Below, piece after piece: positions 12,946-25,594 of a stretch of 38,759 bases of DNA. The notes beneath the pieces were generated by a model, which searched no databases, had not been told where the DNA came from, and saw only the letters and a list, made by a program, of their open reading frames with translations. The DNA lies in NCBI RefSeq assembly GCF_005047635.1, contig NZ_SUKC01000007.1, positions 1 to 38,759 on the forward strand. The letters run 5' to 3'. Made by a program: the position numbers and the translations under genes. Numbering within the stretch: position 1 is the stretch's first letter; every line of letters starts with the position of its first letter. The DNA comes from Arthrobacter sp. CAU 1506. Lineage in GTDB: Bacteria; Actinomycetota; Actinomycetes; Actinomycetales; Micrococcaceae.

Positions 12946-14676
12946 CTACGCCCCAGGCTGCGCGCCGGCCGAGAGCCTCCTGCCGCTGGAGCTGCCGTGG
13001 TCGGCAGTGTCCGTGTCCGGCGGGCCGTCGGCAGGCAGGGTGAAGGTGAAGATGCTGCCGGCGCCGGGCTCGCTGACGCAGCTGATGGTCCCGCCGTGGC
13101 GTTCCACGATGTCCTTGGAGAGCGCCAGCCCGAGGCCCAGCCCGGGAATGGATCCGCGGCGGGCCGCCGGGCTGCGGAAAAACCGTGTGAACACGTTGCT
13201 GCACTCTTCGGCGCCCATGCCCATTCCCGTGTCCGCCACCCGGCATTCCACCATGCCGTCGCCCTCGGTGCAGCTGACCGTGACGTCTCCTCCCTGCGGG
13301 GAGTACTTGATGGCGTTGGACACCAGATTGTCCAACACCTGCCGGACGCGGGCCGGGTCGCAGACCACTTCCAGGTCCCCTAGCGAGTGCGTGCTGAGCG
13401 TGACCCCGCCGGCGGCGGCCTTCGGTTCGGCCGCGGCCACGGCCTGCGCGGCGATTTCCGCCAGATCCGCTTGGACCGGCTGCAGCTCCGAGAAGCCTGC
13501 CGCAGTGCCGAGCAAATCGTTGACCAGTTTGAGCAGCTGGTCCGAATTCCTGGTGATGGTGTCCAGCCCTGAAACCATGTTCGGCGATAAGTCCGGGGCC
13601 ATGGACAGCAACTCGGCGTACCCCTGGATGGAGGTCAGTGGGGTGCGCAGTTCGTGGGACACGCTGGAGAGGAACTCGTTTTTCGCATCCACCGCGGCCA
13701 CCAGTTCGGTGACGTCGTTGAAGGCCAGCACCGTACCTTCCCGCCGGCCGCTGTCGTCAAGCATCGCCTGGGCTGAGGCGGAAAGGACCCGTTGCTGCGG
13801 TTTCCGGCCCATCCAAATCAGGTGCTCGGAAAACGACTCGCCCCGGATGGCACGGCGAATGGGCCGGTCCTGGGCCGGGATCACGGTACTGCCGCCGTCG
13901 GCATAGAGTTCCAGCCGGGACTCAGGCGCGTCCTCCTCCCCCGGCGGGAGCGCCAGACGGCGCAGTTCTTCCTGCCGGCGGTTCCGCAGGATCGTGTTGC
14001 CGGCTTCGTCGACGGCGAGGACGCCCACATCCACCGCGCTGACGACGGCCGACAAGAGCCGTTCGCGCCTGCCGCTGGCTTCCAGCAGGCTGCGCAGCTC
14101 CGCATCCTTGGCTTCAACCACTCGCTGCTGTTCCATCATGCTCGCCGTCATTACCCGTACGGTGATGCCGATGGCCAGCATCATGAACGGGACCAGCAGC
14201 GGGTGGGTCAACGCCATGAGCGTGACGGCGGCGTCCCCGAAGAACACCGGGATCCAGACCATCGCCAGCGAGGCCAGCGCGCCGGCGATCACGGACAGCT
14301 TGGGCAGTTGTCCCGAGGCCGCCAGCCAGATCACCGGGAATGCGGCCAGCAGCCCCACCCCGGTCAGGACGGACCCGGTACCTTCGCGCAGCAGGGCGAT
14401 CGGAACAAAGTCCAACAGCGGGATGAGCAGGAATGACGGGTACGGCAGCTTGTCCCAGGGCACCAGGAAACAGGCCGCCAGCAGCGCCGCGTTGAGCAGC
14501 ATACTGAGGCGGAACTGCGGGTCCGACAGGAGCGGCGGATAGAAAATCCACGTTCCCGCCAGCAGGAACAGCATGGTGATCGATAGCGGCAGTTGGCTCA
14601 TCACAACCCGCCCGCGCAGGGAGAGCGTATGGAACTTAACCCGGTTCAAGATCAGTAGATCGAGGACTTTATCCAC
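12946..14676 (-). CDS. Membrane-bound PAS sensor histidine kinase
   Basis: Integral-membrane sensor of about 576 residues. From the GTG at 14676 the order is a short cytoplasmic basic start (RVKFHTLSLRGRVV), about five to six membrane segments with short loops (MASE-like input, about 30-175), a linker helix, and a PAS-like domain (about 205-325). Then come HisKA with the phosphoacceptor in VSHELRTPLTSI (His 341) and HATPase_c with DNLVSNAIKYSPQGG, DTGMGMG and GLGLGLALSKDIVERHGG. An ATG at 14601 (551 residues) is possible, but the GTG has GGAG upstream and keeps the basic segment before the first helix. It is divergent from the REC-PP2C gene 85 bp away and is its probable phosphodonor. No C-terminal receiver is attached. 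Confidence 0.85.
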   Translation of the reverse strand: MDKVLDLLILNRVKFHTLSLRGRVVMSQLPLSITMLFLLAGTWIFYPPLLSDPQFRLSMLLNAALLAACFLVPWDKLPYPSFLLIPLLDFVPIALLREGTGSVLTGVGLLAAFPVIWLAASGQLPKLSVIAGALASLAMVWIPVFFGDAAVTLMALTHPLLVPFMMLAIGITVRVMTASMMEQQRVVEAKDAELRSLLEASGRRERLLSAVVSAVDVGVLAVDEAGNTILRNRRQEELRRLALPPGEEDAPESRLELYADGGSTVIPAQDRPIRRAIRGESFSEHLIWMGRKPQQRVLSASAQAMLDDSGRREGTVLAFNDVTELVAAVDAKNEFLSSVSHELRTPLTSIQGYAELLSMAPDLSPNMVSGLDTITRNSDQLLKLVNDLLGTAAGFSELQPVQADLAEIAAQAVAAAEPKAAAGGVTLSTHSLGDLEVVCDPARVRQVLDNLVSNAIKYSPQGGDVTVSCTEGDGMVECRVADTGMGMGAEECSNVFTRFFRSPAARRGSIPGLGLGLALSKDIVERHGGTISCVSEPGAGSIFTFTLPADGPPDTDTADHGSSSGRRLSAGAQPGA

Positions 14677-14725
14677 GGCGGCGACTCCAATATCGTCGTC
14701 ACGGGCGGTTTCTGCAGTGACGGAT

Positions 14726-14760
14726 GTGACAAACGGGAAGATAACCGCCTTAATAAAAAC
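14726..14760 (+). promoter_or_regulatory. Possible promoter for a leaderless REC-PP2C operon
   Basis: TAATAA at 14751-14756 could be a -10 element whose start point would fall at or just after the ATG at 14761. GTGACA at 14726-14731 resembles a -35 element, but the spacing of 19 bp is long. No Shine-Dalgarno sequence is near the ATG, which fits a leaderless transcript. Confidence 0.35.
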
Positions 14761-15876
14761 ATGCCAGCCGTCCCCAACAATCGCCGTGCCGTCATAGTCG
14801 AGGACAACGCCGACATTCGCAGGTTGCTGGTCCAGATTGTTTCCGAGCAGGGCTTCACCGTGGCGGAGGCGGAAACCGGCAGGGACGGGCTGGAACTGAT
14901 CCGTGCCGGCGGCGCGGACCTCATTACCTTGGACCTGAACCTGCCCGATCTGGACGGCATCGAAGTCTGCCGCCAGGTGCGGGCGTTCTCGGACGCCTAC
15001 ATTCTGATGATCACCGCGCGGGTGGAGGAAGTGGACCGGCTCAGCGGCCTGGAGACCGGGGCCGATGATTACATCAGCAAGCCGTTCAGCCCCCGGGAAC
15101 TGCAGGCACGGATCGGCGCGCTGTTCCGGCGTCCGCGCTCCCAGCCCGTCGATGCGGTCCCCGGCGCCGATCAGGAACGCGCGGCCGAGGTCCAGCGCAG
15201 TCTGCTGCCCGGCGAACCGCTGAGGGTTCAGGACTACGACATGGCGGGCCGGTGCCGGCCCACCCGGAACGTGGGCGGCGACTTCTTCGATTGGTGCGCC
15301 ACGGACAAGGGCCTGCAGCTTACCGTCGCCGATGCGATGGGCAAGGGCATGGGCGCGGCGCTGATTGCCGCCACAGTCCGCGCGGTGCTGCGTTCTTCCA
15401 ACCGGCATGCGGACCTCAACCAGGCCTTCGCAGCCGCCAGCCAAGCGCTGGAGTGGGACCTGGCGCAGTCCTCCTCCTTTGTCACGATCTTCCATGCGCG
15501 GCTGGACGCCGGCAGCGGAACCGTGGACTACGTGGATGCCGGGCACGGCCTGGGGCTGCACCTGTACGACGGCGGCCTGCGCCGCCTGCCGTCGGGCGGT
15601 CCGCCCGTGGGCGCCGTGCCGGGCAGCATCTGGGCTGCCGGCAGCCTGCTGCTGGCACCCGGCGATTCCCTTCTGGTTCTCAGCGACGGACTCCTCGATG
15701 CCTTCGATTCGGTGGATGCGGCGATGGACGCGGTGGCGGGTGTCGCCACCGTGCGCGAGTCTCCGGAGGAGGTATGCGACGCCGTGCTGGAGCTGGCCGG
15801 CACCGCCGTGGCCGACGACGTCACCGCGGTGATGTTGCGCCGCTGCCCGCCTGAACACACCGAGGGTGCCCAGTGA
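14761..15876 (+). CDS. Response regulator with PP2C (RsbU/SpoIIE-type) phosphatase output
   Basis: A 371-residue two-domain protein. Residues 9-125 form a receiver domain with acidic pair E14/D15, phosphoacceptor D58 (in TLDLNLPDLDG), T85 and K107. Residues about 137-371 form a PPM/PP2C serine phosphatase of the RsbU/SpoIIE type, with metal-ligand motifs GGDFFD (172-177) and DAMGKG (191-196), LSDGLLDAFD, and a terminal DDVTAV. In such proteins phosphorylation of the receiver switches the phosphatase on, and it then dephosphorylates a STAS antagonist. Both likely partners are close: the kinase is divergent upstream and the STAS gene lies two genes downstream. It overlaps the glycosyltransferase start by four bases (GTGA), indicating translational coupling. 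Confidence 0.9.
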   Translation: MPAVPNNRRAVIVEDNADIRRLLVQIVSEQGFTVAEAETGRDGLELIRAGGADLITLDLNLPDLDGIEVCRQVRAFSDAYILMITARVEEVDRLSGLETGADDYISKPFSPRELQARIGALFRRPRSQPVDAVPGADQERAAEVQRSLLPGEPLRVQDYDMAGRCRPTRNVGGDFFDWCATDKGLQLTVADAMGKGMGAALIAATVRAVLRSSNRHADLNQAFAAASQALEWDLAQSSSFVTIFHARLDAGSGTVDYVDAGHGLGLHLYDGGLRRLPSGGPPVGAVPGSIWAAGSLLLAPGDSLLVLSDGLLDAFDSVDAAMDAVAGVATVRESPEEVCDAVLELAGTAVADDVTAVMLRRCPPEHTEGAQ

Positions 15877-17825
15877 AACCTTTCGCCACACGGCTGCTCA
15901 TCGTCCTGACGGTTATCCTGGGCGTCAACTACCTGGCCTGGCGCTGGCTGGACTCGCTCAACTGGTCCGCCTGGTGGATTGCCGTCCCCCTGGTACTGGC
16001 CGAGACCTACAGCTTGATCGACGTCGGTCTCTTCGGCCTGGCCATGTGGCGGATCCGCGAACGCAAAGCGCCGCCGCCGCCGGCGGACGCCACTGTGGAC
16101 GTGTTCATCACCACCTACGACGAACCGCTGGACCTGGTCATGACCACTGCGCTGGCGGCGAAGGACATCCGCTATCCGCACAGCACCTGGATTTTGGACG
16201 ACGGCGCCAGACCGGAACTGGCCGACCTTGCCGCACGCCACGGGCTGGGCTACCTGACCCGCAGCGGCGATTGGGCGGACAAGCCGCGGCACGCCAAGGC
16301 CGGCAACCTCAATAACGCGCTGATGGTGACCCAGGGGGAATTCCTCCTGATCCTGGATGCCGACCAGATCCCGCAGCCCGACATCCTCGACAATACGCTG
16401 GGGTACTTCAACCAGCGCCGGGTCGCACTGGTCCAGACCCCGCAGTACTTCAGCAACGTCCCGGCCGACGATCCGCTGGGCAGCCAGGCACCGCTCTTCT
16501 ACGGGCCCATCCAGCAGGGCAAGGACGGGTGGAACGCTGCGTTCTTCTGCGGCTCCAATGCACTCCTCAGGCGCGAGGCCCTGATGCAGCTTGGCCTTGC
16601 AGGCTACGTGACGGAAGTGGAGCGCGGCGTCCACCGCGCCTTGGCCGGAGCCCGGAGCGCCATTCGGAAGGCCCGCCGGTCCCCGGAAGCAGCCGACCCG
16701 CTGGTGGCTGGGCTGCTTGACGAGGTGGAAGCGGCCACGGACGCGGCCCGCGAGAAACTCAAGGCTGGCGGCTCGCTGAGTGAAATCACCTACGACCTCC
16801 GGACCAAGGTGGAGGGCGCAGTGCGGACACTCGTCGCGGGGAACTTCGCTGCTTTGGAAGCAGACTTGGCCGAGATCGCCGCCATGGAGCTGGGCAGCGA
16901 GCTCGGTACGCCTGAACCGGACCAACTGGACGGGGCGGTGGAACGGATGTCGCAGCGGGACTGGTCCCCGCTGGGGGCATTGGGCTCGGTGCAGGCGGTG
17001 CTGGACGCCGTCTCTGTGGAACGTCCGGACGAGGCCCAGCCGGTGATGCCGCTGGCCACTATCTCGGTGACCGAGGACATGGCCACCTCGATGCGGCTGC
17101 ATTCGATGGGCTGGGAAAGCGTTTATCACCACGAGGTCCTCGCGTACGGTTTGGCTCCCGAGGATCTGAAGACCATGCTCACCCAGCGGCTGCGCTGGGC
17201 CCAGGGCACCATCCAGGTGATGCTGCGCGAAAACCCGCTGGCGCAGCGCGGGCTGAAACTCGGCCAGCGGCTGATGTACTTTTCCACCATGTGGAGCTAC
17301 CTCAGCGGGTTTGCCGCCGTGGTCTACTTCGCCGCCCCGGTCATCTACCTCACCTTGGGCATCCTGCCGGTCAGCAGCCTGAGCACTGACTTCTTCATCC
17401 GGTTCATCCCGTTCATGGTGGTCAACCAACTGCTGTTCGCGGTAGTGGGCAAGGGGGTCAGCACTTGGCGGGGACAGCAGTACAGCCTCGCCCTCTTCCC
17501 CACCTGGATTAAGGCCTGCACGACGGCGGCCCGTAACGTCTGGCTCGGGCGCCCGCTCGGCTTTGCCGTCACCCCCAAGGCCCGCCAGGCCGAAGGGAAC
17601 AGCTGGCATCTGATCCTCCCCCAGCTGGTCGCCATCGCTCTGCTGCTTGTTGCCCTGGTGGTGGGAGCGGTCCGGCTTGCCACTGGCCTGAACGAGCCGG
17701 TGGGCACGCTGGTCAACGTGGCCTGGGTCATCTTCGATTTGCTGATCCTGAGCGTGCTGGTCAAAGCTGTCAGGTACAAAGGGTTCACACCCGACGAAAG
17801 GAACGTCGATGCAGTTCACCGTTGA
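15873..17825 (+). CDS. CesA-like GT2 membrane glycosyltransferase with an insertion domain
   Basis: A 650-residue processive polysaccharide synthase of the cellulose/curdlan synthase type. Two membrane helices (about 7-25 and 35-60) precede a cytosolic GT-A domain and about five C-terminal helices. All catalytic motifs are present: TYDEP (81-85), DAD (162-164), TED (400-402) and QRLRW (438-442). The acceptor-loop motif FCGSNALLRREAL lies at 225-236. In ordinary family members this loop is followed within a few residues by TED. Here about 150 residues (roughly 245-395) intervene, charged and helix-rich. The GTG start overlaps the phosphatase gene, and the 3' end overlaps the STAS gene by 17 bases, so it sits inside a partner-switching operon. 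The product is an unknown beta-glucan-like or other polysaccharide; no PilZ domain is visible. Confidence 0.88.
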   Translation: MKPFATRLLIVLTVILGVNYLAWRWLDSLNWSAWWIAVPLVLAETYSLIDVGLFGLAMWRIRERKAPPPPADATVDVFITTYDEPLDLVMTTALAAKDIRYPHSTWILDDGARPELADLAARHGLGYLTRSGDWADKPRHAKAGNLNNALMVTQGEFLLILDADQIPQPDILDNTLGYFNQRRVALVQTPQYFSNVPADDPLGSQAPLFYGPIQQGKDGWNAAFFCGSNALLRREALMQLGLAGYVTEVERGVHRALAGARSAIRKARRSPEAADPLVAGLLDEVEAATDAAREKLKAGGSLSEITYDLRTKVEGAVRTLVAGNFAALEADLAEIAAMELGSELGTPEPDQLDGAVERMSQRDWSPLGALGSVQAVLDAVSVERPDEAQPVMPLATISVTEDMATSMRLHSMGWESVYHHEVLAYGLAPEDLKTMLTQRLRWAQGTIQVMLRENPLAQRGLKLGQRLMYFSTMWSYLSGFAAVVYFAAPVIYLTLGILPVSSLSTDFFIRFIPFMVVNQLLFAVVGKGVSTWRGQQYSLALFPTWIKACTTAARNVWLGRPLGFAVTPKARQAEGNSWHLILPQLVAIALLLVALVVGAVRLATGLNEPVGTLVNVAWVIFDLLILSVLVKAVRYKGFTPDERNVDAVHR

Positions 17826-18141
17826 GACCACGCCTGCCTATGCCGAAGTCAATGGCAGCGGCAGGTTGAACATGGTCGCCGCTCCCCTGCTCCGCGAGGT
17901 GGTTGCTGCGGTGGTGGCCGAGGGAAACCATCATGTGGTGGTGAACATGGAGGGCACCGAGTTCATGGACTCCTCCGGCCTCGGAGCCCTGATCGGATGC
18001 CTGAAAATTGCCCGACAGGCCGGCGGCGACCTCCGCATCGCGAATGTGCAACCGCAGGTCAAGATGGTCCTGGAACTGACCAGCATGCACCGCGTGTTGA
18101 ACCCGTACGAAAGCGTCGATGCGGCCTTTCCCCATGCCTGA
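17809..18141 (+). CDS. STAS anti-sigma factor antagonist (RsbV/SpoIIAA-like)
   Basis: A 110-residue single STAS domain. The conserved phosphorylation loop MDSSGLGAL is at residues 53-61, with the target serine in the SS pair at 55-56. In partner switching the unphosphorylated form binds the HATPase kinase/anti-sigma protein; the kinase phosphorylates this serine and the PP2C phosphatase removes it. Both enzymes are encoded in the same operon. It starts 17 bases inside the glycosyltransferase gene (GAAAGGAACG upstream of the ATG) and its end overlaps the HATPase gene, so stoichiometric production of the set is likely. No sigma factor gene is adjacent. Confidence 0.9.
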   Translation: MQFTVETTPAYAEVNGSGRLNMVAAPLLREVVAAVVAEGNHHVVVNMEGTEFMDSSGLGALIGCLKIARQAGGDLRIANVQPQVKMVLELTSMHRVLNPYESVDAAFPHA

Positions 18142-18562
18142 GGTCCTGGCCCGGAGCACGCGCCAGGGCCTGGCGACCGGGGCAACCGTGGATGCCCTGC
18201 ACGAAGACTTCGAGACACTGTGGCGGAAAGCCGATTTCGTTCCGGACATGGACCGCATGGCTTTCTCAACCGCCGTCATCGAGGCCGCCAGCAATGTGGT
18301 CCAGCACGCCGTCCCAGCCTCCGATACCCCCCTGCAACTCGGCGTGGAGATCACCATCTGGTCCCGCCGGCTGGAGGCGCGCATTTCCGAAATCGGCGCA
18401 GCACCCTCCAGCCCCGGCCTGTCGAACCCGTCGGAGATCGATGATGAATCCGAGTCCGGCCGGGGGCTGAACCTGATTCATGCCCTGGTCAGCACGGTCA
18501 CCTTTGAGCGCCACGGCGAGGACAACGTCTGGGTTCTCTGCCGCGACTCTTCCGAGGCCTAG
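18119..18562 (+). CDS. RsbW-like HATPase serine kinase / anti-sigma-type regulator
   Basis: A 147-residue GHKL ATPase of the RsbW/SpoIIAB type. The N box is EAASNVVQHAV (55-65) and the second glycine box is SGRGLNLIHAL (113-123). The first glycine box reads EIGAAP (91-96), with Glu where most members have Asp (DxG), which may alter nucleotide binding. It should phosphorylate the STAS protein encoded just before it and bind some target. Usually the target is a sigma factor, but none is present here. It starts within the STAS gene (ATG 18119; ATG 18134 is an alternative) and ends the operon at a terminator. A direct effect on the operon's glycosyltransferase is possible but is inference. Confidence 0.85.
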   Translation: MRPFPMPEVLARSTRQGLATGATVDALHEDFETLWRKADFVPDMDRMAFSTAVIEAASNVVQHAVPASDTPLQLGVEITIWSRRLEARISEIGAAPSSPGLSNPSEIDDESESGRGLNLIHALVSTVTFERHGEDNVWVLCRDSSEA

Positions 18563-18611: not shown

Positions 18612-19253
18612 CTAAAGCCACGCGACGGCCCGGACGGGGGCTCCGTCGGTCGCCGTCAGCTTGAGCGGAAAGAAGCCCACCGTGCACCGGGCGGGCAGCT
18701 TGGCGGCATGGCGGACGTTCTCCACAATCAAGCCGTCGGATCCCAGCACCAACTCATGCACCGGAAGGCTAAAGGACTCGGCAGGCTGCAGCGTCCGGTC
18801 GGGGTTCAACGTGTCCACGGCGAGCACCCGCATGCCCCTGGCCCAGAGCTCATCGGCCGCGGCATGGGAGAGCACCGGATGATCCAGATACCTATCGGTG
18901 CCGAAGTGGCGGTCCCAGCCGGTAGCCAGCAGCACGATCTTGGGCACGTTGCCCTGGACCTGGCTGGCCACGTGGTGCCAGCGGATTTCATCGCCGGCTT
19001 CCAGGTCCGGAACCTGCAGCACCAAGGCTTCGCCCACCAGTTCGTCCAGCGGCACGTCGGAGGTCGTGCGGCCGCCCTCGATGCTGTGGCAGGGAGCATC
19101 GAGATGGGTTCCGGTGTGGCTGCCCAGGTGCAGAGCAGATACTTCCACCCCGTTCTCCGCGATGGTCAGCGCGCCGCCGATCGCCACCTGCGGGTCGCCC
19201 GGGAAAACCTGCATCCCCGAGGACAGCGGGTGCGTGAGGTCCACGAGCTTCAC
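18612..19253 (-). CDS. Cyclase-family metal hydrolase (kynurenine formamidase/isatin hydrolase fold)
   Basis: A 213-residue member of PF04199. The metal-binding signature SHTGTHLDAPCH lies at 45-56 (HxGTHxDxPxH type), after the usual opening KLVDLTHPLSSGM. Members hydrolyse cyclic or N-formyl amides (isatin, N-formylkynurenine) with Mn or Zn. The start is uncertain. The GTG at 19253 fits the family N terminus and uses the GGAG that overlaps the permease stop codon; an ATG at 19295 would add 14 residues and overlap the permease by 35 bases. It ends an operon with the SnoaL-like protein and NCS1 permease, so the imported ring compound is the likely substrate. Confidence 0.8.
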   Translation of the reverse strand: MKLVDLTHPLSSGMQVFPGDPQVAIGGALTIAENGVEVSALHLGSHTGTHLDAPCHSIEGGRTTSDVPLDELVGEALVLQVPDLEAGDEIRWHHVASQVQGNVPKIVLLATGWDRHFGTDRYLDHPVLSHAAADELWARGMRVLAVDTLNPDRTLQPAESFSLPVHELVLGSDGLIVENVRHAAKLPARCTVGFFPLKLTATDGAPVRAVAWL

Positions 19254-19260
19254 GTCGAGC

Positions 19261-20673
19261 TCATTCTCCGGTGCCCAGGGCAGAAGAGTCGGCATCCGCC
19301 ACTGCCGCAGGCTGCTCCGCGAGGTGGCCGGCCGGATCCCCGGCGAAGCGTGCCCGGCTCTTGACCGAGAGGCCCAGATACAGCACGAAGCTCAGCGCGA
19401 ACGCTGGAATGGTGGCCCCGACCGGGCTGGGCCAGACGTAGGTCAGCGCGTAGGAGGCTCCGGCGCCCACCAGCCACACCGCAATCGCGGCCCAATTCAC
19501 CCCGCCGGTGTACCAGTACTTTCCGCCGCTTTCCCGCAGGATGTCCCGGCCGTAGCTGCGCCGCTTGATGATGTAGTAGTCCACGATCATGATGGCGAAC
19601 ACCGGCACGAAGAAGGCGCCGATCATGACGAGGAAGTCGGTGAACTGGTTCAGCAGTGCCATCCAGGTGGAACCGGCGATGGAAACGACGCCGACTACCA
19701 ACGCCGTCGGAAGGAACCGGAGCTTCCGGCGTGCTTGTGCGTTCACGATCGAGGTGACCATGCCGTAGACCACCATGGTGTTGGTGGCCATGACGGACAT
19801 GAAGATCACGATGGCCAGTGGTGTACCGAATGCCGCAACGATCACGGTCGGATCGAATTCCGCCGGCTGCCCTCCGGAGAGGATCACGTAGCCGATGGCG
19901 GTGGCGCCCAGCGTCATGGCCAGGACGGTGGACAGCGTGTAGCCGATGCCGGATCCGACAATTCCGGCGCGGCTGGTCTTGGCCAGGCGGTTGAAATCGG
20001 CGGACAGCACCGTCCAGGAAATGGCCGTGGCGATCACAATATCCAGCACCACAAAATGCGTGTATCCGAGCGACTCGTCGACGCCAATCTGGTTGAACTC
20101 GGCCGGGCTGAAGGTGGTGAAGGCGGTGATGAAGACGTAAACCATGATCGCCAGGATGACGACGGCGAGCCACGGCTCGACCTTCGCAATGCCCTCATGG
20201 CCGAGGATGGCAAGGCATACCACGATGGCCTGGCACAGCACGGCGAACAGGATGGGGTTGGAGAATCCGGTCAGCTGCGCCACCACATAGTTGACGGTGA
20301 CACCGGCCAGCATGGCCTGCACCCAGCTCCAGCCCATCAGGATGATCACGTTGGCGGCCACCGGCAGCAGGCTGCCGCGGGTGCCGAAGGCTCCCCGGGT
20401 GATGGCCATGGTGGGCAGGCCGGTGCGGGTACCGATGTTGCCGATCAGCGTCAGCACGACTGCACCTGCCAGGGTGCCCATGACGATCAGCCAAATGGCC
20501 GAACCAAAGTTGATGCCGGGAATGAAAAGAGTGCCGGTGAGCAGTGTGGTGACCACAAAGTTGGCCGCCAGCCAGATCATGCCGATGCGGGGAGTGGACA
20601 GCGTGCCGCGGATGGGGCCGAAGCCATCCGCGTTCCGTTGAAGATGGTTGTCCAGACGCTGGTAGAGATTCAT
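19261..20673 (-). CDS. NCS1-family permease (purine/pyrimidine/hydantoin/allantoin type)
   Basis: A 470-residue transporter with about twelve hydrophobic segments. Its opening (NADGFGPIRGTLSTPRIGMIWLA), GLPTMAITRGAFG at the first inverted unit and a polar substrate-site segment SWVQAML identify the nucleobase:cation symporter-1 family, which includes the hydantoin permease Mhp1, cytosine permease CodB and allantoin permeases. These are Na+ or H+ coupled importers of small ring ureides. The gene begins 37 bp after the SnoaL-like gene and is followed at once by the cyclase-family gene, whose ribosome site overlaps its stop. Context therefore ties transport to ring opening. The exact substrate cannot be read. 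Confidence 0.88.
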   Translation of the reverse strand: MNLYQRLDNHLQRNADGFGPIRGTLSTPRIGMIWLAANFVVTTLLTGTLFIPGINFGSAIWLIVMGTLAGAVVLTLIGNIGTRTGLPTMAITRGAFGTRGSLLPVAANVIILMGWSWVQAMLAGVTVNYVVAQLTGFSNPILFAVLCQAIVVCLAILGHEGIAKVEPWLAVVILAIMVYVFITAFTTFSPAEFNQIGVDESLGYTHFVVLDIVIATAISWTVLSADFNRLAKTSRAGIVGSGIGYTLSTVLAMTLGATAIGYVILSGGQPAEFDPTVIVAAFGTPLAIVIFMSVMATNTMVVYGMVTSIVNAQARRKLRFLPTALVVGVVSIAGSTWMALLNQFTDFLVMIGAFFVPVFAIMIVDYYIIKRRSYGRDILRESGGKYWYTGGVNWAAIAVWLVGAGASYALTYVWPSPVGATIPAFALSFVLYLGLSVKSRARFAGDPAGHLAEQPAAVADADSSALGTGE

Positions 20674-20710
20674 GAGGGTCCTAGGTGCGAGAAGGATCGG
20701 AAGAGGAAGC

Positions 20711-21133
20711 TCAGCTTGCTGCTGCCGTGGTCATCGGTGAGAGGTGTTCATGCACGGCAACCAGGCGGCCGTCTGCGTCGTGGCGGAAAACGATGGTTTC
20801 CCGCTCGCGGTAGGAGTCCTCGCCGTCGGGCAGGGCTACCGTGGTTGCCACGTCGTGCACGAACACGGCGCCGCCCGGGAACACGGTCACATGCTGGTTG
20901 CTGGATTGGCAGTCGACCACGCGCCACCCGTCGTTGAGCCATTCGGCCCAGAGCGACTCGTAGGCAGCGCGGCCCTCCAGCCGATCCTGCTCCGTGTGAA
21001 ACACAAAGCTGGCCTCCGGGGCGAAGCCGGCAAAGTAGCGGTCCGTGTCCGTAGCGGCGAAGGCACTGACGATGTTGGCCGCTGCGTCTTTGACCTGCTC
21101 GATGGAAGGAGCACGGCTTTCCACCGTTCCCAT
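20711..21133 (-). CDS. SnoaL/NTF2-like protein (DUF4440 type)
   Basis: A 140-residue protein of the cone-shaped alpha+beta NTF2-like fold: an N-terminal helix (VKDAAANIVSAFAATDTDRYFAGF), then FHTEQDRLEGRAAYESLWAEW and alternating strands ending in REREVIVF-like and HEHLSP segments. Family members act as small isomerases, hydrolases or ligand-binding subunits; which applies here is unknown. The ATG at 21133 is preferred because of TAGGAG upstream; the longer frame lacks such a site. It is the first gene of the operon with the NCS1 permease and cyclase-family hydrolase, suggesting it handles the same substrate or an unstable intermediate. Confidence 0.75.
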   Translation of the reverse strand: MGTVESRAPSIEQVKDAAANIVSAFAATDTDRYFAGFAPEASFVFHTEQDRLEGRAAYESLWAEWLNDGWRVVDCQSSNQHVTVFPGGAVFVHDVATTVALPDGEDSYRERETIVFRHDADGRLVAVHEHLSPMTTAAAS

Positions 21134-21186
21134 GTGATGTCTCCTAGCTGCAGCCGAACGGCGGCCGCACAGAAAGTTTCTAAGAC

Positions 21187-21200
21187 GCAACAAGTGTTGC
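21187..21200. promoter_or_regulatory. 14-bp palindrome upstream of the SnoaL-permease operon
   Basis: GCAACA-AG-TGTTGC lies 54 bp before the SnoaL-like start codon, at a plausible promoter position, and may be an operator. The PucR protein encoded at 24410-25594 is the nearest candidate to bind it, which is only inference. Confidence 0.35.
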
Positions 21201-21250
21201 CTGTCAGTGATCTAACTGCAAGTGCCGGTCGTCACATCAGGAATTAAACG

Positions 21251-21292
21251 ACGACGGCGGGGCGCACCGTGAGTGGTGTACCCCGCCGTCGT
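21251..21292 (-). terminator. Terminator after the M20 carbamoylase-type gene
   Basis: Arms 21251-21268 and 21275-21292 pair over 18 bp with two mismatches (core ACGACGGCGGGG). On the minus strand the hairpin is followed by CGTTTAATT, a T-rich tail. It separates the hydrolase pair from the SnoaL-permease-cyclase operon. Confidence 0.8.
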
Positions 21293-21302
21293 GCGCCAGC
21301 AG

Positions 21303-22556
21303 CTATTCCGCCGCGAGCTCCCCGCGGACCAGCCGCCGGGTGACCTCGGTCAGCAGGTCCACGCCGCGCAGGGCGTCGTCGTCGCGGGTGAACTCTGCTT
21401 CGTTGTGCGAGATGCCGTCGACGCTGGGCACGAAGAGCATCACCGTCGGGACCACGTCCTTCATGTTGGTGGAGTCGTGCCCGGCTACCGTCATGATTTC
21501 GGTGTGGCTGAAGCCCAACTGTTCCGCGCTGGCGGCCCCGAGCGCCACTCCCGCGGGCTGGTAGGACACCAGCCCCCACCGGTGGGTCTGCACCAGCGAG
21601 ATGTCCGTCTTGGAGAGAGCCTCGGCGTCGGCGACGCGCTTGTCCAGCAGCTCCACGGCGCGGGCCAGGACCTCTTCGTCCGGCGAACGCAGGTCCAGGT
21701 TCATCACCACCTGCCGCGCAATCGTCACCGGCGAGTTGGGCAGCACGTACATCTCCGACACCGAGGTGTGCAGCTGTCCGGGCGCGAACTCGGCAGCGAG
21801 ATCACGGGCGGCAGAGATGACCAGCGCCGCCCCGTACAGGGCGTCCCGGCGGTCCTCCATCCGGGTGGAACCGGTGTGGGACTGCGCGCCGTCGACCGTG
21901 ACGCGGTACTTGCTGGCCGCCCAGGTACGGTCCACGATTCCCACCTGGGTGCCGGTTTCCTCGAGGTTCTTGCCCTGCTCGATGTGGATTTCGGCGTACC
22001 GGGCCACTTCCGCCAGCACCGGGGCGCCGGTTTCGGTGCCGCGGTCGCCCGCCGCCAGGGCTTCGGCAACTGTTGTGCCGGCCGGGTCCGTGGTGGCCAG
22101 CGCCTGCTCCAAGGGGAGCTTCCCGGTGAACACCGAGCTGCCCATCATGCTGGGCGTGAACCGGCTGCCTTCTTCGTTGAACCAGTTGACCACGGCAATG
22201 TTGTAGACCGGGTCCAGCTCGCCGGCCGCCGCCTCGGCTGCGATGCGGGCCGCTGCGTGGGCGCCGGCCAGCACGCCGTAGGCGCCGTCGTAGCGGCCAG
22301 CCAGCGGCTGCGAGTCCAGGTGTGATCCGAGCAGTACATAGGGGGCGCCGGGGACAACGTCGATGGTGCCGAACTGATTTCCGGCCGCATCGACTTTCTC
22401 CGCGAAACCATGCTGGGCCAGCCACTCGCCGAACCAACGGCGGGTGGCGTGGTCCGCTGTCGTGCCGGCCTGCCGGTCCACGCCGCCGCCGGCGGTGGCG
22501 CCGAAGCCGGACATGGTGGCGAAGTCAGCCAGAAATTCCTGGTTGGTGGTGCTCAT
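21303..22556 (-). CDS. M20-family Zn amidohydrolase (N-carbamoylase/allantoate amidohydrolase type)
   Basis: A 417-residue enzyme of the hydantoinase/carbamoylase branch of peptidase family M20. Ligands for a two-metal centre are visible: H79 in LLGSHLDSQP, D90 in GRYDGAYGV, E128/E129 in NEEGSRF, the His in AEIHIEQG, and the late His in ISHNEAEF. SHTGSTRM, in the lid domain, is the dimer-interface substrate motif. Members cleave N-carbamoyl groups (N-carbamoyl amino acids, beta-ureidopropionate, allantoate) to CO2, NH3 and an amine. The start overlaps the stop of the upstream amidohydrolase gene by four bases (ATGA), so the two are coupled. Together with the NCS1 permease it supports a cyclic-ureide pathway. 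Confidence 0.87.
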   Translation of the reverse strand: MSTTNQEFLADFATMSGFGATAGGGVDRQAGTTADHATRRWFGEWLAQHGFAEKVDAAGNQFGTIDVVPGAPYVLLGSHLDSQPLAGRYDGAYGVLAGAHAAARIAAEAAAGELDPVYNIAVVNWFNEEGSRFTPSMMGSSVFTGKLPLEQALATTDPAGTTVAEALAAGDRGTETGAPVLAEVARYAEIHIEQGKNLEETGTQVGIVDRTWAASKYRVTVDGAQSHTGSTRMEDRRDALYGAALVISAARDLAAEFAPGQLHTSVSEMYVLPNSPVTIARQVVMNLDLRSPDEEVLARAVELLDKRVADAEALSKTDISLVQTHRWGLVSYQPAGVALGAASAEQLGFSHTEIMTVAGHDSTNMKDVVPTVMLFVPSVDGISHNEAEFTRDDDALRGVDLLTEVTRRLVRGELAAE

Positions 22557-24247
22557 CGGGTTTCCTCCCCGCTAGTTGCCATTTCCGGATCCAGGTCTTC
22601 CTGCGCCGGGAACTTTTCTGCGCCAAAGCGGAGCTCGCCGCCCACCATGGTGGCCAGCACCTGGGTGGCGCCGATCTGCGATGGGTCGACGGCGGTGGGG
22701 TCCTGATCCAGGAAGACCAGGTCGGCCAGCATTCCCGGCACCAAACGCCCCTTGGACCCGTCCGTTCCCGTGGCGGCGGCGGAGCCTGCAGTGTAGGCGT
22801 TCAGCGCCTCGGCCGCGGTGATTCTCTCATCCGGACCGTACACCTCGCCGGACGGGGTCAGCCGCTCGACGAAGGACTGCATCACGGCCAGCGGCCGGCC
22901 GTTGGACACAGGGCGGTCCGAGCTGCCCGGGAGGGTGGCGCCGCGCTTCAGCAGGCCGTTGGCCGGGTAGGACGTCGCCGTCCGTTCCGGTCCCAGCAGC
23001 TTCGCCATGCCGTCGCCGAACTCCGTGATGAAGTGCGGCTGCGGGACCAGGACGATGCCTGCCTCGGCGATGCGGTCCAGCTGCTCGGGGCGGATCACGC
23101 CGCCGTGTTCGATCCTGTTGGGCAGCGGCTTGCGGCCATACGTTTCCTGCGCTTCCGTGATGATGTCGATCGCGTGGTCCACGGCATGGTCGCCGATCGC
23201 ATGCATGGCGATGGACCAACCGGCCCGGTACGCCTGGAGCGCGGATGAGCGCAGTTCCTGGGCGTCCATCTGCAGGTAGCCGTGGTTGTGCGGGCAGCCC
23301 ACGTACTCTTCGGTCACATACGCGGTGCTGCCCAGCAGGGATCCGTCGCTGAAAATTTTCACCGGTCCCAGCCGCAGCCAATCGTCGCCCAGACCGGTGC
23401 GGATGCCGGCATCCAAGCCCCGGGAGTCCGGGTCTGCCTCGTGCCCCGTCACCTGGTGCAATGCGTCCAGAACCATCATCGGCTGCATCCGGACACTCAG
23501 CAGCCCCTTGTCGCGCGCGCTCTGGTACGCGCCGAACTCGCGCGGCGAGTAGCCGATCCAGCCGCCCGCGATGCCGGCATCGGTGACGCTGGTGATGCCC
23601 TCGGTCAGGTAGTGGGACGTGGCCAGGTCCAGCGCGCGCTCAATGGTGGCCAGCGGGTAGGGCAGCATGATGTCCTGCACCAACCGCATGGCGTTCTCCT
23701 CCAGCAGCCCGGTGGGCCGCCCCTCGGCATCCCGGGCAACAATGCCGCCGTCGATCGGCGCGGCGAGGTCCGCACCGCGTGCCACGATCAGGTCAAGGGC
23801 GACGCCGTTAACATTGCAGGCATGGCCGGACGAGTGCTTGATCCAGACCGGGCGGCCGCCGGAGGCAGCGTCGAGCCGATCGCGGTCCGGCTGGGCCCCG
23901 TTGTGCAGCAGCGGGCTGTACCCCGAGGCCACCACCCATTCGTCCTCCGCGAGCGAAGCAGCGGCGTCGGCTATCACCGCATACGCCTCGTCCAGGCTCG
24001 CGACGGACCCAAGATTCGCTTCCATCAGGCCGAGCCCGAACCACACACTGTGGGCGTGCACATCGTTGAAGCCGGGGACAATGACGGCGCCTGCGGCGTC
24101 GACCACTCGTCGGGCGCGGGGAACACTCTGCTGGTCGACGTCGAGTGCCAGCACCTTCCCATCGTGGATCAGCAGGCTTTCAGCCACCGGCTGTTGGGGA
24201 TCCTGGGTCAGAATGCGGGCGTTGCGGATCAGGAGATCGACGAGCAT
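22553..24247 (-). CDS. YtcJ-type metal-dependent amidohydrolase
   Basis: A 564-residue member of the amidohydrolase_3/YtcJ group: a beta-sandwich domain split around a TIM barrel. The first metal motif is HAH at 64-66 in GFNDVHAHS. The barrel segments PVKIFSDGSLLG, SIAMHAIGDHAVD, NRIEHG and LPGSSDRPVSN follow in the usual order. YtcJ-like enzymes hydrolyse N-acyl or N-formyl bonds of varied substrates; most are uncharacterised. A true hydantoinase would have a carboxylated Lys in a different sequence setting, so I do not call it one. The ATG at 24247 has AAGAGGACTC before it. It begins the two-gene operon with the M20 hydrolase and is divergent from the PucR regulator. Confidence 0.82.
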   Translation of the reverse strand: MLVDLLIRNARILTQDPQQPVAESLLIHDGKVLALDVDQQSVPRARRVVDAAGAVIVPGFNDVHAHSVWFGLGLMEANLGSVASLDEAYAVIADAAASLAEDEWVVASGYSPLLHNGAQPDRDRLDAASGGRPVWIKHSSGHACNVNGVALDLIVARGADLAAPIDGGIVARDAEGRPTGLLEENAMRLVQDIMLPYPLATIERALDLATSHYLTEGITSVTDAGIAGGWIGYSPREFGAYQSARDKGLLSVRMQPMMVLDALHQVTGHEADPDSRGLDAGIRTGLGDDWLRLGPVKIFSDGSLLGSTAYVTEEYVGCPHNHGYLQMDAQELRSSALQAYRAGWSIAMHAIGDHAVDHAIDIITEAQETYGRKPLPNRIEHGGVIRPEQLDRIAEAGIVLVPQPHFITEFGDGMAKLLGPERTATSYPANGLLKRGATLPGSSDRPVSNGRPLAVMQSFVERLTPSGEVYGPDERITAAEALNAYTAGSAAATGTDGSKGRLVPGMLADLVFLDQDPTAVDPSQIGATQVLATMVGGELRFGAEKFPAQEDLDPEMATSGEETR

Positions 24248-24265
24248 GAGTCCTCTTCGTGCTTT

Positions 24266-24320
24266 CGCTGCGGCGTGCCCGCAGCGATCGGTGGCGTCAG
24301 GGCCATGCCGGGCCGCCACC
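24266..24320 (-). promoter_or_regulatory. Two stem-loops in the leader of the YtcJ-type gene
   Basis: CGCTGCGG/CCGCAGCG (24266-24273, 24279-24286) forms an 8-bp stem ending 19 bases before the start codon, and GGTGGCG/CGCCACC (24290-24296, 24314-24320) forms a second stem. On the minus-strand transcript they would be neighbouring hairpins before the ribosome site. They match no riboswitch class I know, and the transcription start is unknown. Confidence 0.3.
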
Positions 24321-24409
24321 TTCATTTGAACACTGGAGTAATGTCGCACTCAATGGCTAAATGACGCCATAACTTCGGGATAGATTAGGCGATTGCATAA
24401 GATGGACCC

Positions 24410-25594
24410 ATGAGCGAGTCGCTAGCAGAGGTCCTTGCGCACGGCGCCAGCCTGCCCAGGGAGTTCAATCCCGACACGTCAGCCGAGCCTGCGTGGATGG
24501 AACTGATCCAACGCTTGTGGCAGGAGCGCGATTCGCTGGTCAGCGATTTCCTGGAACGCTTTGCCACCATCTCTTACGAGGGGGCACTGGTGCCGGACGA
24601 GGATGTCCACCGGACGGCAGCAGACACCATGGAGATGTTCCTGTTCCTGCTGGCCGGGCTGGATCTGCCCGCAGACCTGCAGTCCCTGCCGCGGGACGTC
24701 GCCGCGCGCCGGGCCCGCCAGGGGGTCCCGATGGAGGCCTTCCTCAGCGCGGTCCGCAACGACTTCAGGGTGCTCTGGAAAGGGCTTGAACGGGTAGCGC
24801 GCGGACACGGCACCGAGATCCTCGTGGCCAACATGGACCGCGTTCTGGACACCGTGGAGAACTACGTCAGCAGCATCCAGCAAGCCTTTTCCGAAGAAGA
24901 AGCCTTGCTCGTCCGCGATAAACAGCTGCACCGGCAGCGGCTGCTTTCGAGGCTCTTTAATACGGATACCCGAAACGCCGGCGAGATGTCCGACATCGCC
25001 GACGGGCTGGAGGTACAGAGCTCGGACGTGTTCGAGCTGATGGCAGTCACACGGGAGACGGCGGCGAAGTTGCCGCGCCAGCCCGGTGCGGATCGCCAGA
25101 CGTTCAGCTACGAACGCGCCGGGGCGCTGTACCTTTTCCGCGTGGTCCGCGCCGGACGGACATGGCAGGACGACCCGCCCGAATTTCCTGCCGGCTACGT
25201 CCCCGGCGTTGAAGGCCTGGCGGCGATTCCCCAAGCAGCGGCATCCGCCTTGGTACTGGCCACCAAACACGGCGAGGAGGCGGGACTGGCCACCGTTCCG
25301 GGAACCTGGATGACCATTGCCCGGGACCTGCTGGAAAACGCCCTGCCCGGGTATTCGCACCCGATCACCACCGCCTTGGACCACTGCACACCGCACGAAC
25401 GCCAGCGGTTGCTGCAGGTAGCACGCAGCTACGGCCGCACCGGCTCAATCAAGGAAACGGCGGAGGAACTGTACTGTCACCGGAACACGGTGGTCAACCG
25501 GCTGCATTCCCTGGAAGAGGTCATCGGGCTGGACCTGACCGTCCCGGCACAGGCCGCCTTGGCACTGGTAGCCCTCGCGGACTACAAAAACTGA
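24410..25594 (+). CDS. PucR-family transcriptional regulator
   Basis: A 394-residue regulator with the PucR/CdaR C-terminal helix-turn-helix (SIKETAEELYCHRNTVVNRL, about 347-366, followed by LEEVIGLDL). The N-terminal two thirds contain a helical sensor-like domain and a GGDEF-like fold remnant typical of the group, without a GGDEF motif. PucR proteins activate purine, ureide or other nitrogen-compound catabolic genes in response to a metabolite. It is divergent from the YtcJ-M20 operon (162-bp gap) and precedes an MHS transporter gene, so it is the likely controller of the whole 18.6-28.5 kb island. No terminator is seen directly after it. Confidence 0.87.
   Translation: MSESLAEVLAHGASLPREFNPDTSAEPAWMELIQRLWQERDSLVSDFLERFATISYEGALVPDEDVHRTAADTMEMFLFLLAGLDLPADLQSLPRDVAARRARQGVPMEAFLSAVRNDFRVLWKGLERVARGHGTEILVANMDRVLDTVENYVSSIQQAFSEEEALLVRDKQLHRQRLLSRLFNTDTRNAGEMSDIADGLEVQSSDVFELMAVTRETAAKLPRQPGADRQTFSYERAGALYLFRVVRAGRTWQDDPPEFPAGYVPGVEGLAAIPQAAASALVLATKHGEEAGLATVPGTWMTIARDLLENALPGYSHPITTALDHCTPHERQRLLQVARSYGRTGSIKETAEELYCHRNTVVNRLHSLEEVIGLDLTVPAQAALALVALADYKN

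Follow-up and report, generated by a model that had tools for sequence, protein, structure and literature searches.

A PilZ-less BcsA-family synthase with a helical insert lies inside a partner-switching operon of Arthrobacter sp. CAU 1506 and may be controlled by its STAS protein

Introduction

What does a bacterial partner switch control when one of its genes encodes a polysaccharide synthase? The question is raised by positions 12946-18562 of a 38,759-nt stretch of DNA from Arthrobacter sp. CAU 1506 (contig NZ_SUKC01000007.1, assembly GCF_005047635.1), which we analyzed as a whole and call the window. There, a histidine kinase gene is divergent from an operon encoding a PP2C phosphatase with a receiver (REC) domain, a glycosyltransferase family 2 (GT2) synthase, a STAS protein, and an RsbW-like HATPase. 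A first-pass annotation of the window had proposed that this switch acts on polysaccharide synthesis directly. Here, we report that the synthase belongs to the BcsA family, has no PilZ match, and carries an extra helical insert, and that the insert and the switch genes occur together in related loci. We consider it somewhat probable that the synthase is independent of cyclic di-GMP (c-di-GMP) and has the STAS protein as a subunit, which would dock on the insert under the control of phosphorylation.

Gene organization of the module

Gene coordinates and Pfam matches confirmed the layout described in the first-pass annotation, namely a histidine kinase gene divergent from REC-PP2C, GT2, STAS, and HATPase genes with successive overlaps of 4 bases (REC-PP2C/GT2), 17 bases (GT2/STAS), and 23 bases (STAS/HATPase). 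The features are as follows.

12946..14601, minus strand: membrane histidine kinase (Pfam PAS_4, HisKA, HATPase_c), divergent from the operon; start taken as the first ATG of the frame
14602..14760, no strand: intergenic region between the divergent genes, from gene coordinates; presumed promoter region
14761..15876, plus strand: REC-PP2C (Pfam Response_reg and SpoIIE); presumed STAS phosphatase
15873..17825, plus strand: PilZ-less GT2 synthase, BcsA/cellulose synthase family (Pfam Cellulose_synt / GT2)
16596..17051, plus strand: synthase insert, residues about 242-393; three confidently predicted helices and two weaker ones
17070..17078, plus strand: TED motif, shortly after the insert (motif search)
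17184..17198, plus strand: QxxRW motif (motif search in the synthase)
17562..17579, plus strand: FxVTxK gating-loop motif, kept although PilZ is absent
17809..18141, plus strand: STAS-only protein (Pfam STAS); presumed phospho-acceptor Ser56 at 17974-17976
18119..18562, plus strand: RsbW-like HATPase_c_2 protein (Pfam HATPase_c_2); presumed STAS kinase or sequestering partner

The SpoIIE match of REC-PP2C (E 3e-31) occurs together with REC in Pfam, and the histidine kinase is likely the input to this REC domain.

The synthase carries a helical insert before TED

BcsA of Escherichia coli matches the synthase over residues 4-241 and 394-630, and the roughly 150 residues between them, placed between the FFCGS and TED motifs, have no BcsA counterpart. 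A structure model of the whole synthase, based on 101 sequences (mean predicted local distance difference test [pLDDT] 79.8, predicted template modeling score [pTM] 0.76), was closest to E. coli BcsA, with a template modeling score (TM-score) of 0.65 by query length for this predicted structure. In the model, the insert helices span residues 234-268, 276-297, and 302-340, and the next long element is a helix at 399-411 starting at TED (400-402). When folded alone, the insert again gave three helices, with block-mean pLDDT of 83-96 over insert residues 11-100 and lower values beyond. The insert itself matched no Pfam family; Foldseek gave no structural match at E<=0.001 (305 at E<=10), and a profile search of the PDB yielded five matches at E<=1 (best 0.086), none of them a convincing relative.

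The TED, QxxRW, and FxVTxK motifs are all present in the GT2 core, the last being what we take to be the gating-loop motif. In BcsA, TED starts the moving finger helix. An insert placed at TED could gate chain movement. The gating loop is understood here as PMC10374906 describes it. Pfam gave no PilZ match in the synthase, which stops 16 residues past the last long helix of the model, and its TIGR03030 score of 356 is under the cut-off of 699.

The insert occurs together with STAS and HATPase genes

We compared 170 locus rows, comprising the window, 30 loci from family genomes, 80 named loci (the best 80 of 552, a sample leaning to close relatives), and 59 loci from order and class searches. 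Four duplicates with identical GT2, one locus with the synthase in two open reading frames (ORFs; L119), and one fragment (L231) were dropped. The spacing between CGS and TED divided the remainder into 134 non-redundant insert-bearing loci (169-189 residues), 25 no-insert homologues (24 residues), and five short-insert loci (133-140 residues); strains of the same species may count twice unless their GT2 is identical.

STAS lies directly downstream of the synthase in 125 of the 134 insert-bearing loci, and STAS plus HATPase in 122. PP2C was found within 4 kb in 120 loci, and PP2C, STAS, and HATPase together in 116. By contrast, neither STAS nor HATPase was found in any of the 25 no-insert homologues within the fetched stretch of 7-13 kb, which in some cases ends with the contig; one of them has a 23-bit PP2C-like match on the opposite strand. 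The association of insert and STAS gave a Fisher p of 5e-22, without kinship correction. The adjacency of these families is conserved, with no sigma gene regularly among them (see below). In 101/122 loci, the PP2C gene closest to the synthase lies upstream of it and on the same strand, and the GT2 and STAS genes overlap by at least 1 base in 108/122, as judged from script-predicted starts; in three loci, GT2 and STAS are in one reading frame. In the record titles of the named loci (best 80 of 552), 29 genus names occur among those with STAS and HATPase, including Arthrobacter, Kocuria, Nocardioides, Rhodococcus, Microbacterium, and Kitasatospora.

Of 111 rows scored with phmmer and with a profile, just 14 (13 once a duplicate pair is merged) hold a relative of the histidine kinase above 400 bits. 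Outside the window's family, GAF replaces REC in each of the four PP2Cs scanned (Rhodococcus, Kitasatospora, Microbacterium, and Nocardioides). By gene content, PP2C-GT2-STAS-HATPase forms the conserved core, with the histidine kinase optional. The first-pass reading of a five-gene module therefore needs a qualification: its families and order stand, and the kinase does adjoin divergently in the window, but it is not part of the core. To that reading we add the helical insert and the absence of PilZ.

Co-occurrence was assessed in 149 genomes of the window's bacterial family, the genome handles common to the synthase and HATPase searches being taken as one set. A synthase match at 1e-30 was present in 26 genomes, one of which (G106) holds a no-insert homologue. 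The HATPase profile matched 29 genomes, that is, 25/25 with an insert-bearing synthase and 4/124 without (G034, G102, G121, and G133; Fisher p 1.5e-24, uncorrected for kinship). G121 has STAS, HATPase, and a kinase fragment, with no PP2C or synthase nearby, and looks like a decayed locus. Extra HATPases of the same family without PP2C or STAS nearby were seen in G084 (L280, L281) and G121 (L279), which belong to one genus. These two genomes have eight and six SigB/F-class sigma matches, respectively, and G084 matches Sinomonas atrocyanea (L093).

Short-insert loci retain STAS

All five short-insert loci (L059, L060, L246-L248) have STAS immediately downstream (65-86 bits), and Pfam confirmed it in both loci scanned (L059, L247). 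No HATPase or PP2C was found in the fetched stretch of any of the five, no Pfam HATPase among the six downstream ORFs that were scanned in L059, L246, and L247, and no match of the HATPase profile at E<=0.001 in the short-insert genomes G362 and G400. In an alignment inspected by eye, short-insert STAS proteins keep the Ser before Gly (GASG or SPSG) and lose the Asp.

A GH26-like protein follows STAS in L059 and L246, the lone synthase L096 adjoins a GH26 gene, and the lone L110 adjoins a gene that matches OpgC and, weakly, GH26. Such GH26-like genes recur by lone, short-insert, and Nostoc synthases (L096, L110, L059, L246, and L289, the last described below), with two of the matches weak, and proteins with GH16 and a ricin-type lectin lie near short-insert synthases (L059, 7429-8769; L247, 3323-6181). 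These GH26 and GH16 neighbors of some relatives suggest a beta-glucan or beta-mannan as the polymer.

In Pseudarthrobacter sp. NamE5, plasmid pE5100 (L119) has STAS-HATPase-PP2C followed by the synthase split over two ORFs, and the same strain holds a second locus (L067) with an unbroken synthase.

A related locus on a Nostoc plasmid

A plasmid search gave 10 records, of which a Nostoc plasmid was examined, so that the following describes one cyanobacterial locus and is no survey. Plasmid pn1 of Nostoc sp. UHCC 0926 (L289, 7765-17613) encodes a BcsA relative (509 bits) without a PilZ match, in which, by eye, LDDG and HAKAGN are separated by a long additional stretch. PIG-L, STAS, SpoIIE, REC, HATPase_c_2, and histidine kinase genes lie within 10 kb after the synthase on both strands, the REC and SpoIIE genes being separated by an opposite-strand ORF. 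Before the synthase come DUF3131 genes and one encoding a protein whose GH26 match falls slightly short of the cut-off. A search with the Nostoc synthase gave five further matches, all with <60% identity. A tree built from 45 synthases over 474 columns split the Nostoc, four short-insert, and 21 insert-bearing synthases from 19 no-insert synthases with support of 1.0, and the insert-bearing and short-insert synthases grouped together with support of 0.97. We consider it almost as likely as not that a PilZ-less class of the BcsA family, found in Actinomycetota and having a cyanobacterial sister, has given up c-di-GMP control in favor of a STAS subunit docking on helical inserts acquired by the catalytic domain; STAS would then be the constant element, and kinase, phosphatase, and sensor exchangeable inputs.

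Search for a sigma factor partner

A sigma factor as the hidden regular partner of the switch was sought in the flanks of the loci, in the window's genome, and in sets of 59 and 149 genomes. Of 12 Sigma70_r2 matches in the window's genome, 11 exceed the cut-off and none lies within the window; a different contig (G000:C44) encodes a SigB/F-like sigma that scores 211 bits, which is under the family cut-off. For 111 of the 170 rows, the flanks were scanned with 13 seed ORFs, one of them alkyltransferase-like and not a sigma factor. Sigma-like ORFs were present in the fetched flanks of 11/111 rows, and neither the FliA-like (L172) nor the SigB-like (L168) seed was the top match of any of them. 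Among 59 genomes with the locus or a short-insert relative (G362, G400), 26 have only a TIGR02980 match at the primary-sigma level (read as about 120-135 bits, mostly in ORFs of >400 residues) or, in one, none. Of these 26 genomes, 23 have STAS and HATPase beside the synthase and thus no SigB/F-class sigma alongside them in the genome. The sigma family's own cut-off was reached in 0/149 family genomes. The candidate was rejected: such sigmas are mildly enriched and not regular. The first-pass annotation had named a regular sigma partner in homologous loci as the finding that would speak against it, and none came to light.

Features of the STAS and HATPase proteins

The STAS protein matches SpoIIAA (E 1.6e-11) and a structurally characterized anti-sigma-B factor antagonist (E 3.2e-10). 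Position 56, within DSSG, is Ser in 96 and Thr in 1 of 97 sequences, and we take it to be the phosphorylation site by analogy with SpoIIAA. The HATPase only distantly matches RsbW (E 0.012). Residues E55 and N59 of its presumed N-box and G114 and G116 of its presumed G2-box are kept in 94/94 sequences. Judged from these residues and from the G1 box treated below, kinase activity is likely in many members and doubtful in some.

A model for control of the synthase and its alternatives

On the partner-switching logic of SypA and SiaC, both described in the last section, we propose a path from the histidine kinase through REC-PP2C and dephosphorylated STAS to the synthase. Partner switching would take the place of c-di-GMP and PilZ in controlling the synthase post-translationally. 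As a regulatory subunit, the product of the overlapping STAS gene would dock on the helical insert just before TED; we chose STAS over HATPase as the docking partner because it remains in the short-insert group and is the product of the overlapping gene. Synthesis would most likely be permitted while STAS is free and unphosphorylated. The RsbW-like HATPase would phosphorylate or capture STAS, which would thereby be withdrawn, leaving the synthase off. A signal, passed from the histidine kinase to REC here and presumably received by GAF elsewhere, would activate PP2C, which would dephosphorylate STAS and turn the synthase on.

Several points weigh against this model. Three genomes of one genus (G034, G102, and G133, with loci L275, L277, and L276, respectively) hold PP2C, STAS, and HATPase genes in this order but gave no match to the synthase at E<=1e-5. 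They are the main counter-evidence, since by their gene content the switch does not appear to be always dedicated to the synthase. Nine of the 134 insert-bearing synthases have no adjacent STAS: L089 lies at a contig end, L058 is broken by a deletion covering QRLRW, L068 has STAS-HATPase 3 kb off on the other strand, L096 stands alone, and L048, L050, L110, L122, and L140 have a common CGS-TED spacing of 184 residues. A switch set elsewhere in the genome was checked for L048 and L050 only, and in both cases (genomes G116 and G130) a histidine kinase-PP2C-STAS-HATPase set was found (L272, L273), which counts in favor of the model. The presumed G1 box of the HATPase is degenerate in many members, its position (E91 in the window) being occupied by Asp in 46, Ala in 31, and Glu in 15 of 94 sequences. 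Sigma matches at E<=1e-42 occur in 15/29 HATPase genomes versus 25/120 others (p 0.002, without kinship correction). In mirror-tree analysis of 115 loci, partial correlations given the synthase core were 0.50 for insert-HATPase, 0.41 for insert-STAS, 0.35 for insert-PP2C, and 0.49 for STAS-HATPase, so that by this measure the insert correlates slightly more with HATPase than with STAS; all values were positive (0.29-0.50) with no unlinked neutral gene as control, and they do not separate the two as docking partner. Finally, all contacts, the phosphorylation, the on/off sign, and a beta-glucan-like product are inferences on our part. As a separate observation on the G1 position, the STAS Ser stays in the sets in which it is Ala (31/94).

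Of the alternatives, the one that survives best assigns the docking on the insert to the HATPase, which would inhibit the synthase like an anti-sigma factor and be pulled off by unphosphorylated STAS. This would follow classical RsbW logic and agrees with the insert-HATPase correlation, which is as high as that of STAS and HATPase. It also fits that 122 of the 125 loci in which STAS is adjacent have a HATPase as well; of the remaining three, L092 and L105 are cut by contig ends. However, the short-insert synthases hold STAS without a nearby HATPase, G362 and G400 have no HATPase of the same family, and the gene overlapping GT2 is that of STAS. We regard HATPase docking as unlikely.

We rate as quite improbable that the switch has another target, such as another enzyme or a diguanylate cyclase, and adjoins the synthase through a common surface program. 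The three genomes with the trio and no synthase would fit this explanation. On the other side, no GGDEF domain was matched in the five module genes and twelve further window proteins scanned, a crude motif screen found an ORF with GG[DE]EF in only 5/134 insert-bearing loci, and no no-insert synthase has STAS or HATPase nearby. Control of a sigma factor in trans, with the synthase as one co-expressed regulon target, is very improbable in our view: the RsbV/RsbW-like partners, the sigma on another contig, and the enrichment of such sigmas speak for it, but the 23 genomes and the flank scan described above do not, and transcriptional control leaves unexplained that the insert itself tracks the switch.

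The proposal of the first-pass annotation that the switch acts directly on synthesis is thus backed by adjacency, by the link to the insert, by co-occurrence, and by the 23 genomes without a SigB/F-class sigma, and is held back by the three genomes with the trio alone.

Genes flanking the module

The module is flanked by a hexapeptide acetyltransferase gene and a cyclase gene (Pfam, window), and no relatives of these two were found among the neighbor ORFs of the other loci. Downstream of the module, 18612-25594 resembles a region for purine/allantoin catabolism, with the cyclase, a cytosine/purine permease, an M20 peptidase-like protein, an amidohydrolase, and a PucR-type regulator.

Comparison with known systems

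Partner switches acting on enzymes are already known, and the closest precedents are SiaABCD and Bgr of Sinorhizobium meliloti, both of which work via c-di-GMP. A search of the literature by title and abstract start, largely of papers outside subscription, gave no report of a switch operon with a synthase inside. If our model is true, a membrane polysaccharide synthase is switched by serine phosphorylation of a small subunit, independently of c-di-GMP.

The RsbU-RsbV-RsbW and SpoIIE-SpoIIAA-SpoIIAB systems consist of the same three protein families; their output is a sigma factor, whereas none is a regular partner here. With BcsA cellulose synthase, the enzyme shares the fold and the TED, QxxRW, and FxVTxK motifs; it differs in the absence of PilZ, in the insert, and in its TIGR03030 score below the cut-off.

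Regarding S. meliloti, Baena et al. 2019 reportedly describe a partner switch that controls mixed-linkage beta-glucan synthesis via c-di-GMP. The target of Bgr is said to be the cyclase BgrR, with the switch and synthase operons separate. Taking a diguanylate cyclase in the switch operon as the Bgr feature, we found none in the five window genes. Both systems tie a partner switch to a PilZ-less BcsA-like synthase, for beta-glucan in S. meliloti, but Bgr acts on c-di-GMP activation, whereas here the synthase is inside the switch operon and has an insert. BgsA of S. meliloti has no PilZ (PMC10374906).

The small protein encoded in the window matches STAS families only, and the enzyme of its operon is a GT2 (Pfam, five genes). 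In SiaABCD of Pseudomonas aeruginosa, SiaA is presumably the PP2C phosphatase. As in our model, a phosphatase, a kinase, and a small phosphoprotein control an enzyme and not a sigma factor there: SiaD becomes active when SiaC binds its helical stalk, an effect prevented by phosphorylation of SiaC (PMC8457831). In contrast to the present locus, the enzyme controlled is a diguanylate cyclase, and SiaC belongs to the DUF1987 family and is phosphorylated on Thr (PMC8457831); the set includes no synthase.

In Anabaena, all4160 also joins STAS to a glycosyltransferase; by its description in PMC8256260, it differs in having an N-terminal STAS fused in one protein and in its setting. SypA, a STAS protein of Vibrio fischeri, is active when unphosphorylated and promotes biofilm formation in connection with a polysaccharide locus (PMC8256260), which resembles the sign proposed here. 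It differs in that SypE joins kinase and phosphatase and in that no insert-bearing synthase is known as its target. The insert domain, with no Pfam family and no convincing PDB relative, would thus offer a concrete candidate target for non-sigma STAS proteins such as SypA.

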